A stretch of DNA of 64,000 nt from contig JAZGGI010000042.1 in the NCBI GenBank assembly GCA_036480375.1, positions 1-64,000 on the forward strand, read 5' to 3'. How positions within the stretch are numbered: the first letter of the stretch is position 1; each line of letters opens with the position of its first letter. This document shows positions 11,075 to 28,748 of this stretch, in pieces. The position numbers were made by a program, and so were the translations under genes. Under the pieces are notes generated by a model. That model ran no database searches and was not told the origin of the DNA. It was given only the letters and a program-made list of their open reading frames with translations. The stretch is from Candidatus Zixiibacteriota bacterium. GTDB taxonomy: Bacteria; Zixibacteria; MSB-5A5; GN15; JAAZOE01.

Positions 11075-13693
11075 CTATTCGCATTTAAGACTATCCACTG
11101 GATTAGCCGAGGCCGCTCTAATCGCCTGGTAAACAACTGTCCCCAGCGCAGCAGTTAAAGCCAATAAAGTAGCAAAAGCATATATACCCAGACCGAGATC
11201 AATACGATAAGCAAAATTCTCCAACCATTTACGCATGATAAAATACGCAACCGGCCAGGCAACAATATTGGAAATTACAGCAAGGCCTAAAAACTGTCGG
11301 GTTAACAAGGCCACCACACCCGAAGTTGATGCGCCGAGTACTTTGCGAATTCCAATCTCTTTGGTTCTCTGCTCGGCGGCATAAGATGCCATTCCAAGCA
11401 GTCCCAGGCAACCGATAAATATTGCCAACAGACAGAAATAAAGCACGATTTTACTCAGCATTACTTCTTTTCGATATTGCCGGTCAAAATCCTCGTCGAG
11501 GAAGAAATAGTCATAAGGAATTCCCGGAGCGAACTGTTTCCAGATTTGCTCGATTGCCTCAATTGATTGAGTGACCGATATCCCGGCCAATTTGAGAGAG
11601 ACATCTCTCAAAGGTTCCCGCTCATATTGAATTACCAAAGGCTCAATTGGATTTTGGAGTGAATACTGATGAAAATCCTTAACGACACCAATCACTCGTT
11701 TTACTGAATTCGGTTCCGTGTCATCTGCCGGTGAGGTACGGATGATTTTGCCCAGGGGCTCATCCCAGCCTATCAATCGAACCGCCGCTTCGTTGATAAT
11801 GATTGCCTCGGAGACGTCAGTGGTGATCTCTGGCGAAAAATTTCTACCCTCAGCCAGAGTTATACCAAGGACTTCCAAAAATTCATGATCAGTGCCTATG
11901 TAATTCATCGTCTGGGATTCATCATCCATTTGACCTTCGGGGAAATAGATTGATTTTGAAATTCCGCGCCCGGGGATTCTGGTCGACGCAGTGACTCCCG
12001 CGACTCCCGGGGCTCTCTCCAGTTCACTCAGGAGAACGTCAAAATTATTACTGACTGCGGAATTTACGTTCGGCAAAACCAGAACCTGCGCGCCGTCAAA
12101 TCCCAGTTCCTGGTTTTTCATAAAATCAATCTGACTAAAAATGGTGAGCGTTCCGATGATTAGAATAATAGAAATGGAAAACTGAAAGACGACTAAGGCG
12201 CTACGAATCCCTGAACCTGATTTACTGGAGACCGGTACTTTTTTGAGAGTCTGCGATGGATTAAAAGCCGAAAGATAAAAGGCAGGATAACATCCGGCCA
12301 ACAAGCCGATCAATACGGCCCCGCCGAGTAATCCAAGCATCAACTCGAGATTGGTGAAATATTCGAGACTTATGTCACATCCCGCGAGATTATTGAACGC
12401 CGGTAGAGCCAATTCAAATAATATTAATGCCAGAGCGAAGGCTAACAGGCAGTATAATACAGCTTCACCGAGAAACTGCCCAATGAGTTTTCTACGATCA
12501 GCCCCAAATGTTTTCCTAAGGCCAACTTCACGAGCGCGAGAAGCGGAACGAGCGGTTGTCAGATTCACAAAATTGATACAGGCGATCAAAAGAACAAATA
12601 AGGCAACCGCCGTAAAGCTGTAAACATACGTCATATTACCAACAATTCCGTAATCTTGGCCAAAGTCGGAATGCAAGTAAATATCCTTTAACGGCTGGAA
12701 GTAGATTTTCATACTGCCCCCCATTGCAAGCAGATCTCCAAAATGCCTGTTTGCGAAGTCGTCCATTTTCTGCTCAACAGCGTGGTAATCAACACCCTCC
12801 TCAAAAATTAAATAGGTAGTTGTATTAAAATCGAACCAATCATTCAAATAATCCGAGCCGGTTGATACCAGGGTCTGGTGAGACCGAACGATATCGAACG
12901 TGATATGGGAATTGGAAGGAATGTCTCTAAATACCCCGGTCACAGTGTAATCATCTCTTCCGTTGAATCGTATAATCTGGCCGATTGGATCTGCATCTCC
13001 AAAATACTTCCGGGCCGTTGACTCAGATAAAACGGTTGTAAAAGGTTCTTCGAGAGCCGTCATCGGGTCTCCCCGTATCATTGAGAAATCAAAAACCTGG
13101 AATAGAGAATTTTCGGCAAAAGTAACATCATCCTCAAAATACTCACTCTCTCCGACGGTGACGGCGATTCGGGAATCTCCCGAAAATCTGACCGTAGCCG
13201 CAATTTCAGGGAATTCTTCCACCATGGCGGGACCCATGGGAGCGCTGCTGACAGGCACCCTTATCGGCGTACCAAAGTGTACATCAAGATATGGTCTGTA
13301 AATGCGATCGGCATTCTGATGAAAACTGTCAAAACTCAACTCATGCTGTACCCAGAGCATGATTAGAAGACTGCAAGCCATTCCTACCGCAAGGCCGGCA
13401 ATGGTGATAGTGAAATATCCAAATTGTTTCTTTATGTTGCGCCCGGTAATCTTTAAGTAATTTTTAAACATTACGATACTCCAGTAAATAGTGTTCCTCA
13501 TGAACCCCGGTAAAGACCTTAGAATTTCCCACCAGAACCACATCCATGCCACAATCGGAGACTTATGCCGAAGGATAGAAGCGTAAATTTGGCTCAAATC
13601 GCCCGCCGCATAATAAAAATCATCAGGCCTGGCAATCGCTTTGAGCAACCAGATGGCAAATTGGGGCAGTTTATCAGGTTGATCTTTGTTCAT
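11075..13693 (-). CDS. Large MacB/FtsX-type ABC transporter permease with permease-prefix domain
   Basis: 872 aa. The N-terminal about 75 residues (LPQFAIWLLKAIARPDDFYYAAGDLSQIY) look like the permease prefix domain of PadR-linked permeases. Then come TM1 (about 95-115), a MacB-like periplasmic domain, three helices around 375-480, a second periplasmic domain and a final set of three helices with the FtsX signature EQRTKEIGIRKVLGAS. The start overlaps the stop of the PadR gene by 4 nt, so they form one operon. No ATPase gene adjoins; such permeases borrow one encoded elsewhere. Substrates of this class are usually lipoproteins, peptides or antibiotics, but the sequence gives no hint here. Confidence 0.85.
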   Translation of the reverse strand: MNKDQPDKLPQFAIWLLKAIARPDDFYYAAGDLSQIYASILRHKSPIVAWMWFWWEILRSLPGFMRNTIYWSIVMFKNYLKITGRNIKKQFGYFTITIAGLAVGMACSLLIMLWVQHELSFDSFHQNADRIYRPYLDVHFGTPIRVPVSSAPMGPAMVEEFPEIAATVRFSGDSRIAVTVGESEYFEDDVTFAENSLFQVFDFSMIRGDPMTALEEPFTTVLSESTARKYFGDADPIGQIIRFNGRDDYTVTGVFRDIPSNSHITFDIVRSHQTLVSTGSDYLNDWFDFNTTTYLIFEEGVDYHAVEQKMDDFANRHFGDLLAMGGSMKIYFQPLKDIYLHSDFGQDYGIVGNMTYVYSFTAVALFVLLIACINFVNLTTARSASRAREVGLRKTFGADRRKLIGQFLGEAVLYCLLAFALALILFELALPAFNNLAGCDISLEYFTNLELMLGLLGGAVLIGLLAGCYPAFYLSAFNPSQTLKKVPVSSKSGSGIRSALVVFQFSISIILIIGTLTIFSQIDFMKNQELGFDGAQVLVLPNVNSAVSNNFDVLLSELERAPGVAGVTASTRIPGRGISKSIYFPEGQMDDESQTMNYIGTDHEFLEVLGITLAEGRNFSPEITTDVSEAIIINEAAVRLIGWDEPLGKIIRTSPADDTEPNSVKRVIGVVKDFHQYSLQNPIEPLVIQYEREPLRDVSLKLAGISVTQSIEAIEQIWKQFAPGIPYDYFFLDEDFDRQYRKEVMLSKIVLYFCLLAIFIGCLGLLGMASYAAEQRTKEIGIRKVLGASTSGVVALLTRQFLGLAVISNIVAWPVAYFIMRKWLENFAYRIDLGLGIYAFATLLALTAALGTVVYQAIRAASANPVDSLKCE

Positions 13694-14022
13694 GATTCAT
13701 GAGACCGCACTTTGGCCCCGGTTAACATCGCATTTATTGTGTTATTAAGCTCCCTCACTTCTGCAAGAGCCTCTATTCCTTCCTGGCTGACCGTATATAT
13801 TCTGCGGCTTCTGCCGCTTCTTCCCGGCAAAGGAGGCGCGACCGCCGCTTTCACCATTCCCTTTTCCAATAAACGATCCAAAACGTCATAGATCGCTCCG
13901 ATCGACCAGTATTTTCTCGTAATCCGAGCCAATTGCTCCCTGATTGTGACTCCATATGCGTCATCTTCCAGCTTCTTGATCGAGAGCAAAACCAGTTCTT
14001 CTTTTCTTGAAAGCCATTTCAT
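13690..14022 (-). CDS. PadR-family transcriptional regulator
   Basis: 110 aa winged-helix repressor-type protein. It has an N-terminal helix (LSRKEELVLLSIKKL), a tyrosine-containing helix-turn-helix (YWSIGAIYDVLDRLLEKGMV) and a wing with RRIYTVSQEG, all characteristic of PadR regulators. The start ATG at 14022 has GGAG upstream (GGAGTAAAAAGCGT). Its end overlaps the permease start (13690-13693). PadR/permease pairs of this architecture are common, and the regulator is expected to control its own operon, though no clear operator palindrome was recognised upstream. Confidence 0.9.
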   Translation of the reverse strand: MKWLSRKEELVLLSIKKLEDDAYGVTIREQLARITRKYWSIGAIYDVLDRLLEKGMVKAAVAPPLPGRSGRSRRIYTVSQEGIEALAEVRELNNTINAMLTGAKVRSHES

Positions 14023-14228: not shown

Positions 14229-14705
14229 TTGCTTTTATATAACATGCGCCATGTCCAGCACGGTGCCGGCCAGCTGGTTGCAGCCACAATATCATGGGCT
14301 ATTGGCTCAACATATTCCCGGTATGCGGATCAACCATCATCAAAGTTATTGGGCGTTGGTATGCAAATGATAACCGGAGGAACAGGACTTTTAATAATAT
14401 CATTTATATCCGGTGAAATACTTGATTTAAATTTCAGCGCTATCACTCTCAGGTCCTGGTTTTCACTGGGCTATCTGATTTCGTTCGGATCGATCGCTTT
14501 TGCCGCCTATGTATGGTTACTATCCGCATCGACCCCGGCCAAAGCGTCAACCTATGCTTTTGTGAATCCTATAATAGCGTTAATTCTGGGCGCAATGCTG
14601 GCAGAAGAAACTCTTATTTCATGGACGCCAGGCTGTTCGATTTTAGTGATTGTTGCGGTCGTCATAATTAAGACACCCACACAACCCAAAATAAAACGCG
14701 CCTAA
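14229..14705 (+). pseudogene. 5'-truncated EamA/DMT-family transporter
   Basis: The frame encodes about five hydrophobic helices matching the second EamA repeat of drug/metabolite transporters (GQLVAATISWAIGSTYSRY, then FVNPIIALILGAMLAEE). Family members are about 300 aa with ten helices; only the C-terminal half is present. The preceding 70 bases, in any frame, lack the first repeat and no ribosome-binding site is evident. It converges on the Lys-rich miniprotein gene and overlaps its end by 4 nt. Most likely a deletion remnant. Confidence 0.7.
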
Positions 14706-14854
14706 TCACGATTCTTGTTGGCCTTCTTCTTTTTCTTCTTGGGTTTAGGTTTAGTGGTTTTGGGTGGGACATTCACCAATCGACGCATGATGTCGTCGAA
14801 GCCGATATCAGACTGGTCGCCGTTTTCAATCTTCGTCGTCTGTTTCCTTGGCAT
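14702..14854 (-). CDS. Lys-rich miniprotein downstream of the PIN gene
   Basis: About 50 aa: a short acidic/hydrophobic stretch (IGFDDIMRRLVNVPP) followed by a tail of Lys, Pro and Thr. Its ATG (14854) lies inside the PIN gene, whose stop is at 14826, so the two are overlapping and probably translated together. The ribosome-binding site is weak. Short proteins with an F-D-x-x-x-x-x-L-x-x-V-P-P core are seen next to PIN toxins, so an antitoxin or accessory role is possible, but this is inference. An earlier start at 14887 is possible. Confidence 0.5.
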   Translation of the reverse strand: MPRKQTTKIENGDQSDIGFDDIMRRLVNVPPKTTKPKPKKKKKKANKNRD

Positions 14855-15377
14855 TTTCTTCTTTACCAGTAAATAAGTCAGGCACACCCAGTGGTTTTTT
14901 GACCTTCAGGTCGTACCCAGCAACATTACCGTCGAGAGGTAACAAAGCTCGACTTTTGCCGGGTTTGTCTTTTCCGTCAAACGTGTAAAACGTTTCCACC
15001 TCATAATGAATAGCCGTTGCTAAATGAATCGCATCTGGAACAGATAGCGTTGGGAGATTTTCTTGATCCTTTATGTTCTGATAAAAGTCGCGCAAGTCAT
15101 GGGTTAACGTATACATATTGTGATCAGTGCTCGCCACCACAACATTTCGCCTTTGCAAGACATTATCAAAATCTCTTTGGGCCTTAACTGACAACGTGCA
15201 TCGCAAAACCTCTGCTCGCGTAACGGCACTTGTGATCATTCGTACCTTGTTGTCGTCGATGAGCCGCATGATTTCACTTATGCCCTTCGTCTCTTCGGGA
15301 TTCTTTCTTTGTTCGTTCTTTAACCAAGCAATGAAAATACACGAATCGAGGTACACAAGAGGTACTTTAATCGGCAT
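14826..15377 (-). CDS. PIN-domain ribonuclease
   Basis: 183 aa PIN-fold protein. The four acidic metal-binding positions are visible: Asp in VYLDSCIF, Glu in TRAEVLRC, Asp in VPDAIHLATA and Asp in YTFDGKD. The start ATG at 15377 is chosen because AGGAGG lies 7 nt upstream; a longer frame from 15452 lacks a site. It overlaps both neighbours: 11 bases with the 270-aa gene upstream, 29 bases with the Lys-rich miniprotein downstream. Known PIN proteins are mostly RNases, often VapC-type toxins. No classical AbrB/RHH antitoxin is encoded next to it, so the partner, if any, must be one of these unusual neighbours. Confidence 0.8.
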   Translation of the reverse strand: MPIKVPLVYLDSCIFIAWLKNEQRKNPEETKGISEIMRLIDDNKVRMITSAVTRAEVLRCTLSVKAQRDFDNVLQRRNVVVASTDHNMYTLTHDLRDFYQNIKDQENLPTLSVPDAIHLATAIHYEVETFYTFDGKDKPGKSRALLPLDGNVAGYDLKVKKPLGVPDLFTGKEENAKETDDED

Positions 15378-16170
15378 CGCGAAGCCTCCTAATAAAGTCC
15401 TCAGAACTAAGGTCGCCGGTAGCATCTGGCGCAACTCCCCGCAGGTCTGCAAAGGACGGTAGTTTATTATCAGGCGGATGTATCTCTATTCTGTTTACCT
15501 CTGCACAATGTGGAAACTTCGCTCTCGGGCGATACCCCAGGCGTCCATAAATAGTTATGTGTCTGTCAAGAGATTTGACGGCATCACCCTTTACGTCATC
15601 GGAGAATTTACACTTGATGCTAACCGGACCTGCAACGGGATAGACCCTAAATTCATTCTTGCCGCCGTGAATGTTGATCTGTTCCAACATACCGGTGATA
15701 CTGCCCTCAGCAAAATAATCCCCACCTAACACATCACCAATAAACTCATCCAAGTGACGACTAATATTTACGCGTTCGTTGTCGAACGCTACGTCAATGC
15801 TAGCAACCTCTTTATTGATACTGGACCCAAGTTTTCTGAAATCGTTTACAAGGGAATCGTCGAAATCTTCTGGGATTTCGCCTCTTTGGATATCGCCGAT
15901 ACCCTTGATAAACTTCACGCCCACAGCCTTAGTATAGTCGATAGAGGGTTCTTCCGGTATAGCTGCCACCTCAACGGTAGCGGGGCTGGAATACTCAAGA
16001 TTGGTGATCTGGAAAAACATCGTGGGCTGCCGTTTTCGGCTAACGAGCTTATCCATCCGTACTAATATCTTGTAAATGTGGGACAGTTCTTCTGCAAAAT
16101 CATCCAAGCGCAGGCGATCTCCGTCGTTTTTACGACTTCGGATTGTGAATTTCAATTTGTTTTCGGACAT
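15367..16170 (-). CDS. Uncharacterised protein preceding the PIN gene
   Basis: 267 aa, no signal peptide, no helices crossing the membrane. I start at ATG 16170 (AAGGTGG upstream) rather than the GTG nine bases earlier. The N-terminal third contains LDDFAEELSHIYKIL and YSSPATVEVAAIPEE. I do not recognise it firmly; its arrangement of a predicted helix, then a strand with SPATV, resembles a family of proteins of unknown function that co-occur with PIN genes. The C-terminus is charged (SSEDFIRRLRDAD) and overlaps the PIN start, indicating translational coupling. Confidence 0.65.
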   Translation of the reverse strand: MSENKLKFTIRSRKNDGDRLRLDDFAEELSHIYKILVRMDKLVSRKRQPTMFFQITNLEYSSPATVEVAAIPEEPSIDYTKAVGVKFIKGIGDIQRGEIPEDFDDSLVNDFRKLGSSINKEVASIDVAFDNERVNISRHLDEFIGDVLGGDYFAEGSITGMLEQINIHGGKNEFRVYPVAGPVSIKCKFSDDVKGDAVKSLDRHITIYGRLGYRPRAKFPHCAEVNRIEIHPPDNKLPSFADLRGVAPDATGDLSSEDFIRRLRDAD

Positions 16171-16211: not shown

Positions 16212-16740
16212 CTATTCCGATGAGTCCCGATACAATAGCCTTTTGCCCTCTATCCCAACCAATGCAACGTTGGTGCGGTCAATATCGGACATCTGCCTAT
16301 TGTTGTACCTAAAATCAAACTCACCTATTATAACGCTTTAAATGGTTTGCACCGACATGTTGATAAATCCCAGTCAATCCGCGTTTCAAGATAATAAAGT
16401 AATTCTCAACTGTGTTTGTATGAATCCTACCGCACACGTATTCTCCTGCGCTACGGTTAACAACTTCGTGATTTTCAAATTCTTTGTCAATACCGGAATA
16501 GGCCCTAAAATCGTCGGTGAATATTTCCGTATCCTTTCTGATCTGTTCTTTCATTATCGGCTTCAAAGTCTTTGCCGCCACAGTAGGTACGTGATAAGAC
16601 CTAACTTCACCACCGCGCTCGACAAGAGAAAATACCTTTTCCTTATGACCCCAATCCCTGGCTCCGGGCCTGTGCTTTCCTTTATTCCCCCAATTGGGTT
16701 TGTTAAGTATATAATCGCCCAAAATAAAATATAGGCACAT
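16212..16740 (-). mobile_element. IS1595-family transposase remnant
   Basis: The minus frame from 16740 encodes the central ISXO2-like DDE core (FTDDFRAYSGI, HTNTVENYFIILKRGLTGIYQHV, HLKRY) and stops after HLKRYNR. Shifting by one base at about 16332-16336 continues the family C-terminus (GEFDFRYNNR, then DIDRTNVALVG) to a TAG at 16212. The indel fits one extra A in CGTTATAATAGG. The N-terminal zinc-ribbon and the first Asp region are missing. No terminal inverted repeats were identified. It is inactive and directly precedes the PIN cassette. Confidence 0.7.
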
Positions 16741-28273: not shown

Positions 28274-28391
28274 ATCCATTCTTGAATTTAGCAGAACTTG
28301 GACAAAAAATCGTTTCCAAACCTTTCTATCAAAATTGGCTACGTCGTTAGGAAGAAGAATTAGTTAAGCCAAGATTTACTTTAAATATTAA

Positions 28392-28748
28392 TGGAGGTGG
28401 GGGGAATCGAACCCCCGTCCGAAAAAGGCGTCAAATCATCTTCTACGCGCGTGTCCGTTTTATTAAATCTCGTCTACAATCAAGCCAAACGGCAGGCTTA
28501 GACCATAAACCAGCCCGTAAATTTAAGCCCTGCATCCGGACTATGCAAAGCCGAGCCTTCTTTTGCGACGCCTTATCCGGACGTAGAAGGCATAACTTCC
28601 GGTAAGACGAGCTGCACTATTTACTAGGCAGCCATGGCGTAATCATATTCGCCAATTATTTATGGTTGCCGAATAGTTTACGAGAGTATCCGACAATCTC
28701 GGCGCGCTGACAATTCCCCACCTGATCCGTCGAAACCTGGTCACCCCC
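28392..28748 (-). ncRNA. ssrA: tmRNA (transfer-messenger RNA)
   Basis: Rescues stalled ribosomes by trans-translation. The ends form an acceptor stem GGGGGTG / CACCTCC with the G3-U pair recognised by alanyl-tRNA synthetase, and discriminator A. The T-arm is GGGGGTTCGATTCCCCC. The 5' domain has the conserved CCAGGTTTCGACGG. The tag frame reads GGC GAA TAT GAT TAC GCC ATG GCT GCC TAG, giving GEYDYAMAA after the Ala carried by the RNA; a Gly resume codon is typical of Bacteroidetes/Chlorobi-type tmRNA. CCA is not encoded. Length about 357 nt, one-piece form. Confidence 0.93.

Follow-up and report, generated by a model that had tools for sequence, protein, structure and literature searches.

How does a PIN-domain nuclease come to stand in a chain of overlapping genes with no classical antitoxin beside it, and what do its neighbours do? 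In the 64,000-nucleotide stretch of Candidatus Zixiibacteriota DNA analysed here (the window), three minus-strand genes follow one another: a 267-aa protein, here termed X (15367..16170), a 183-aa PIN nuclease (14826..15377) and a 50-aa Lys-rich miniprotein (14702..14854) composed of FDDIMRRLVNVPPK and a basic tail. X and PIN overlap by 11 nt, and PIN and the miniprotein by 29 nt, confirming the coordinates and the serial overlap called in the first-pass annotation. Shine–Dalgarno-like sequences are present for X (AAGGTGG), PIN (AGGAGG) and the miniprotein (GAAGAA), and a promoter scan of the cassette performed no better than scans of shuffled sequence. Elsewhere in the window, a minus-strand tmRNA gene with the tag GEYDYAMAA occupies 28389-28748, and the same strand carries at 11075-14022 a PadR-like regulator and, after it, an 872-aa MacB/FtsX-type permease, a common regulator–transporter pairing that was judged from sequence only.

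The PIN protein matches PF01850 at E 1.9e-11, and its profile matches VapC 7by2 at E 7.5e-7. Alignment of 18 relatives revealed that the four catalytic acids, D11, E56, D115 and D134, show little or no variation; the active site is intact, as had been supposed. Among 40 relatives, PF01850 at E<=1e-8 was found in the window's own genome alone. This scarcity fits a horizontal arrival. The GC content does not stand out (44.5% in the cassette and 45.4% in the window), and the composition of the cassette gives no sign of transfer.

Comparison across genomes, plasmids and phages identified 26 distinct loci in which X lies immediately 5' of PIN, spanning the window's lineage, two Alphaproteobacterial plasmids, Pseudomonas phages (PQ349086 among them) and many viral contigs. 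The plasmids belong to Roseomonas (NZ_CP061092) and Methylobacterium (NZ_JX627580). At essentially all 26 loci, the stop codon of X and the start codon of PIN overlap or abut, at about -17 to +2 nt; where a locus offered several possible starts, this geometry was read from the start homologous to that of the family. The overlap is no chance feature of one genome. A decayed copy was also seen on a phage contig (L062:5030-5140), where an X tail is followed by the start of PIN (MAGAKPIIYFE) and nothing further.

The pairing was approached from both sides. An X-first search of 133 genomes of the window's phylum yielded six confident X genes (G000, G015, G043, G049, G001 and G097), five of them directly followed by PIN and the sixth, in G001, cut by the contig end; a weak X relative in G118 (E 1e-6) has no PIN. 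Queries with single X sequences reached few relatives on viral and genome contigs, and a PIN-alignment query worked. The PIN-first search of viral contigs returned 14 loci, two of which (L036 and L037) are the same sequence, and all 14 carry X immediately upstream, as do five of five extra loci from a second PIN scan. The first-pass annotation had proposed to look for co-occurrence of the two families, and had named an X found mostly without PIN as the observation that would count against its toxin–antitoxin-like reading; in these searches X is nearly always accompanied by PIN, and the reading was not refuted. X and this PIN subfamily are a real pair.

Further analysis of the distance matrices revealed a correlation between X and PIN (Mantel rho 0.52, with 0/2000 shuffles as high), which remains at 0.49 (22/2000 permutations) on the ten loci having a transposase. 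X–transposase and PIN–transposase distances, in which some transposase sequences are fragments, show no correlation (rho about 0). Since X and PIN distances correlate and neither tracks the transposase, the pair travels as a unit that is swapped between transposons.

The transposons in question belong to the IS1595 family, some members of which carry passenger genes (ISfinder literature). The remnant upstream of X in the window (16215..16740, minus strand) is a decayed, 5'-truncated and frameshifted transposase that matches PF12762, the ISXO2-like DDE family, at E 1.5e-24; in relatives the transposase is full-length and bears the Zn-ribbon PF12760. The element order is transposase, X, PIN and, in some cases, miniprotein. 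Of the 26 loci, 12 have an IS1595 transposase directly 5' of X, and in G097 a few bases separate its stop codon from the X start. Within the phylum, PF12762 occurs in 16/133 genomes, including four of the six with X, where the transposase directly precedes X; genome co-occurrence alone gives P 0.002.

The ends of the element were resolved in relatives. On the Roseomonas plasmid (L042), repeats beginning GGGGATTATG enclose transposase, X, PIN and miniprotein, with an exact 8-bp target duplication, TATCTTTA. Similarly, on the Methylobacterium plasmid (L043), repeats beginning GGCGATTATATCC enclose the same four genes and are flanked by an exact 8-bp duplication, AATCGGAA. Both terminal repeats are also present in L035 and L041. 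The window keeps a single repeat, GGCGATTATATACTTAACAAACCC, at the transposase end (16719-16696, minus strand), and this recurs inverted 3' of the cassette with 0 mismatches in L021, where it follows the miniprotein, and 3 mismatches in L020. The far end of the window's element is gone at the point where a truncated EamA transporter fragment begins (14229..14705, plus strand; PF00892, E 5.8e-13). A target duplication is no longer recoverable in the window. X, PIN and, where present, the miniprotein are therefore cargo of IS1595-family transposons. The mobile setting assumed for the cassette is thus corroborated, and both the truncated transporter and the IS remnant said to flank it are present; the remnant, however, is the vehicle and not a mere neighbour, and while the three genes do fill 14702-16170, the element itself reaches upstream to the terminal inverted repeat at 16719.

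Elsewhere in the phylum, IS1595 elements hold a DNA methyltransferase (L085 and L089) or, in L090, a P63C gene at the X–PIN position, which suggests that IS1595 is a general cargo carrier. In two further elements, X–PIN is followed by a methyltransferase–Mrr gene (L041:5450-6919 and L039:5576-6826), in which an N6/N4 methyltransferase is joined to an Mrr-like or NA-iREase domain; the cargo of these elements is compound and defence-like. Two rearranged or extended copies were also noted: at L030:4010-4996 a deletion has joined the transposase N-terminus and the X gene into a single open frame, and at L020:4896-5201 (genome G097) the transposon end also contains a fourth gene, for a probable membrane protein of 101 aa.

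The cargo has outlived its transposon. Both G000 and G015 have a frameshifted or decayed transposase, and comparison of these genomes, at dS about 0.8-1.0, gave dN/dS values of 0.13 for PIN and of 0.05 and 0.11 for two segments of X. Purifying selection thus acts on both genes; by itself it cannot distinguish a toxin pair from a pair with some other role in RNA processing.

What X might be was addressed through its family and its predicted structure. X has no family in Pfam, NCBIfam or PADLOC, where matches reached E 0.04 at best and fell short of the cut-offs, and scanning 18 X relatives singly against Pfam and PADLOC gave no family match. The original description of the cassette as lacking a classical antitoxin holds, with X lying outside the searched family libraries. 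PADLOC-DB 2.0 defence models gave weak matches alone for X or PIN (E 0.003 or worse), and PDB sequences returned for X designed coiled coils and chance matches, nothing else.

An AlphaFold model of X built with 13 family sequences (pLDDT 83) divides the protein into three parts. Residues 1-149 (15724..16170, minus strand) form a compact alpha/beta domain, which, modelled alone as residues 1-150, gave pTM 0.84 and pLDDT 88.6 and had no match to solved structures in the PDB at E<=0.001. Residues ~150-232 (15475..15723, minus strand) were matched by Foldseek to the OB domains of Asp/Lys-tRNA synthetases, SSB, OBody, PolD and RecG, with best E values of about 1e-3; an OB-fold of the nucleic-acid-binding type is a fair inference from these model-based matches, not proof. 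Residues 235-267 (15370..15468, minus strand) constitute a tail, NKLPSFADLRGVAPDATGDLSSEDFIRRLRDAD, in which a flexible linker, modelled with low confidence around residues 231-255, leads into a helix at 256-266; the tail as a whole is the proposed PIN-binding element. This tail, with the consensus DLRGxAPDATGxxSSEDFVRELRDGW, is the best-conserved part of the window's X subfamily. In the other X subfamily, the tail is short or different and ends in ...GIFRQGD.

The tail motif was also encountered outside X genes. It forms an in-frame C-terminal extension of a phage GH25 endolysin (L061:2490-3380) and of a 77-aa phage protein (L063:4923-5153), with no X or PIN gene near either. In G126 an unrelated PIN is preceded by a small ORF that ends in VNYVRELRDEW, resembling the X tail, a single anecdotal case. 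Among full-length viral structures, the closest to X is a predicted phage DUF6575 protein (E 2.7e-9, TM 0.41). Membership of X in DUF6575, raised by this Foldseek match, was ruled out at the sequence level, since the PF20215 profile matched X neither in the Pfam scan nor in the whole-genome search.

The locus is an IS1595 transposon relic that retains an intact, selected X–PIN pair, and this pair is proposed to be, in all probability short of certainty on the role of X, a toxin–antitoxin-like module in which X probably inhibits PIN via its tail. X would be made first, with its translation coupled to that of PIN. PIN would be an RNA-cleaving toxin, and X, with its alpha/beta domain and OB-fold, would block it with the C-terminal tail and helix. 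Should X be lost, with the element or because foreign nucleic acid titrates its OB domain, PIN would be released, and could then cause addiction to the element and/or abortive defence.

The toxin–antitoxin-like reading is favoured because the order is antitoxin-first with overlap or abutment, because X and PIN distances correlate while transposase distances do not, and because both genes are conserved, down to the PIN acids, despite decayed transposases. It is favoured also by the predicted OB-fold and the C-terminal helix after a low-confidence linker, and by IS1595 carriage with 8-bp duplications, together with the methyltransferase and P63C cargo of sister elements. Counted against it are the large size of X and its lack of a recognised DNA-binding antitoxin domain, a tail motif that is clear in the window's X subfamily alone, and the incomplete terminal repeats of the window's copy. 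A gene that lies upstream of its nuclease gene, overlaps it and encodes a flexible tail with a terminal helix has the usual antitoxin layout, and X is for this reason most likely an antitoxin that neutralises PIN through its tail. X–PIN thus looks like a mobile toxin–antitoxin-like module with a new antitoxin type.

A possible, if unlikely, alternative is that X is a nucleic-acid-binding sensor or adaptor that brings PIN to phage or other foreign RNA or DNA, PIN being inactive until X is engaged, so that the pair forms a defence unit. The predicted OB-fold would suit such a role, as would the defence-type cargo on other IS1595 elements and the occurrence of X–PIN in prophages. Viral structures most like full-length X include the DUF6575 protein, and DUF6575 is listed among the domains of an anti-phage defence screen (PMC9519451). 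However, X lacks a DUF6575 profile match, and the antitoxin-first overlapping order and the flexible tail with its helix are typical of antitoxins. Less likely again is a mobile sensor–effector immunity unit, in which the OB-fold would sense foreign nucleic acid, the tail would serve as the release switch for PIN, and the bare X tails borne by phages (L061 and L063) would act as decoy antitoxins.

The third gene was examined as a candidate antitoxin or needed third part, X then having a separate role. The miniprotein is small and basic and overlaps PIN, and similar miniproteins follow PIN in about ten loci. These are nevertheless of two unrelated types, and many loci have none, among them several viral loci and those of the Pseudomonas phages; in G015 all but the first ~13 residues have been lost, and X–PIN is still conserved there, with PIN under purifying selection. 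The window and L021 miniproteins are near-identical in their core (88% identical DNA over 41 bp), whereas the X and PIN proteins of these loci are merely 22-27% identical (PINs ~27%). A miniprotein that is near-identical where X and PIN have diverged goes with the transposon ends and not with PIN, which makes an antitoxin role very unlikely. It has no match in Pfam, NCBIfam or PADLOC, and it seems to be a dispensable part of the transposon chassis. A three-part toxin–antitoxin system with an essential miniprotein was rejected in view of the patchy presence of this gene and the G015 remnant. Of the original toxin–antitoxin-like reading, the conserved, overlapping X–PIN pair on mobile DNA therefore stands, and the tight stoichiometric unit of three does not.

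A role internal to the transposon, in which X–PIN would regulate transposition or the transposase mRNA and not host survival, might be read from the fact that roughly half of the loci show tight linkage to the IS1595 transposase; it is highly improbable given that X–PIN occurs without any transposase in Pseudomonas phage AV001 and several viral contigs, and has been conserved beside dead transposases. That the cassette is neutral debris, a decaying passenger without present function, is scarcely credible: the transposase is broken, one element end is lost and the flanking EamA gene is truncated, but three frames stay open, the catalytic acids are kept and dN/dS is 0.05-0.13.

PIN toxins and transposon-carried toxin–antitoxin pairs are already known (PMC2701414, PMC7157771). 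The toxin–antitoxin-like module resembles type II VapBC systems in its PIN protein with four acids, its antitoxin-first overlapping operon and its patchy mobile distribution, and X, like a VapB, is an upstream gene that overlaps or abuts the toxin. It departs from them in its upstream partner. VapBC antitoxins are small and have a known DNA-binding domain (RHH, AbrB, PHD, HTH, MerR, COG2442 or COG2886); X matches none of these, is far larger than usual antitoxins, and combines a predicted OB-fold with an undescribed N-domain. PMC2701414 lists PIN antitoxin families, and X belongs to none of them. Its likeness to DUF6575 is at the level of structure, with no PF20215 sequence match and no shown link of that family to PIN.

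Text searches of an open-access library for IS1595 with toxin–antitoxin or PIN gave no account of an X–PIN module. The present comparison identifies a PIN partner family that is missing from the protein libraries searched and differs in structure from the listed PIN antitoxins, and IS1595 transposons that move X–PIN among distant bacteria, plasmids and phages while sister elements carry DNA methyltransferases. If X neutralises PIN, it would represent a new antitoxin class and, for simple insertion-sequence-like elements, a new class of cargo.

The nearest precedent for the carrier is the Tn3 family, whose passengers include toxin–antitoxin-type pairs, PIN toxins among them (PMC7157771). No Tn3 transposase or resolvase was found beside X–PIN, where the adjoining transposase is of the IS1595 type. 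In contrast to the Tn3 passengers, X–PIN is carried by an element with an ISXO2-like DDE transposase and 8-bp duplications, X is not a Phd, AbrB or RHH protein, and the pair stands directly behind the transposase. What is new here thus looks like a toxin–antitoxin-like module with a new type of antitoxin in a new family of carrier.
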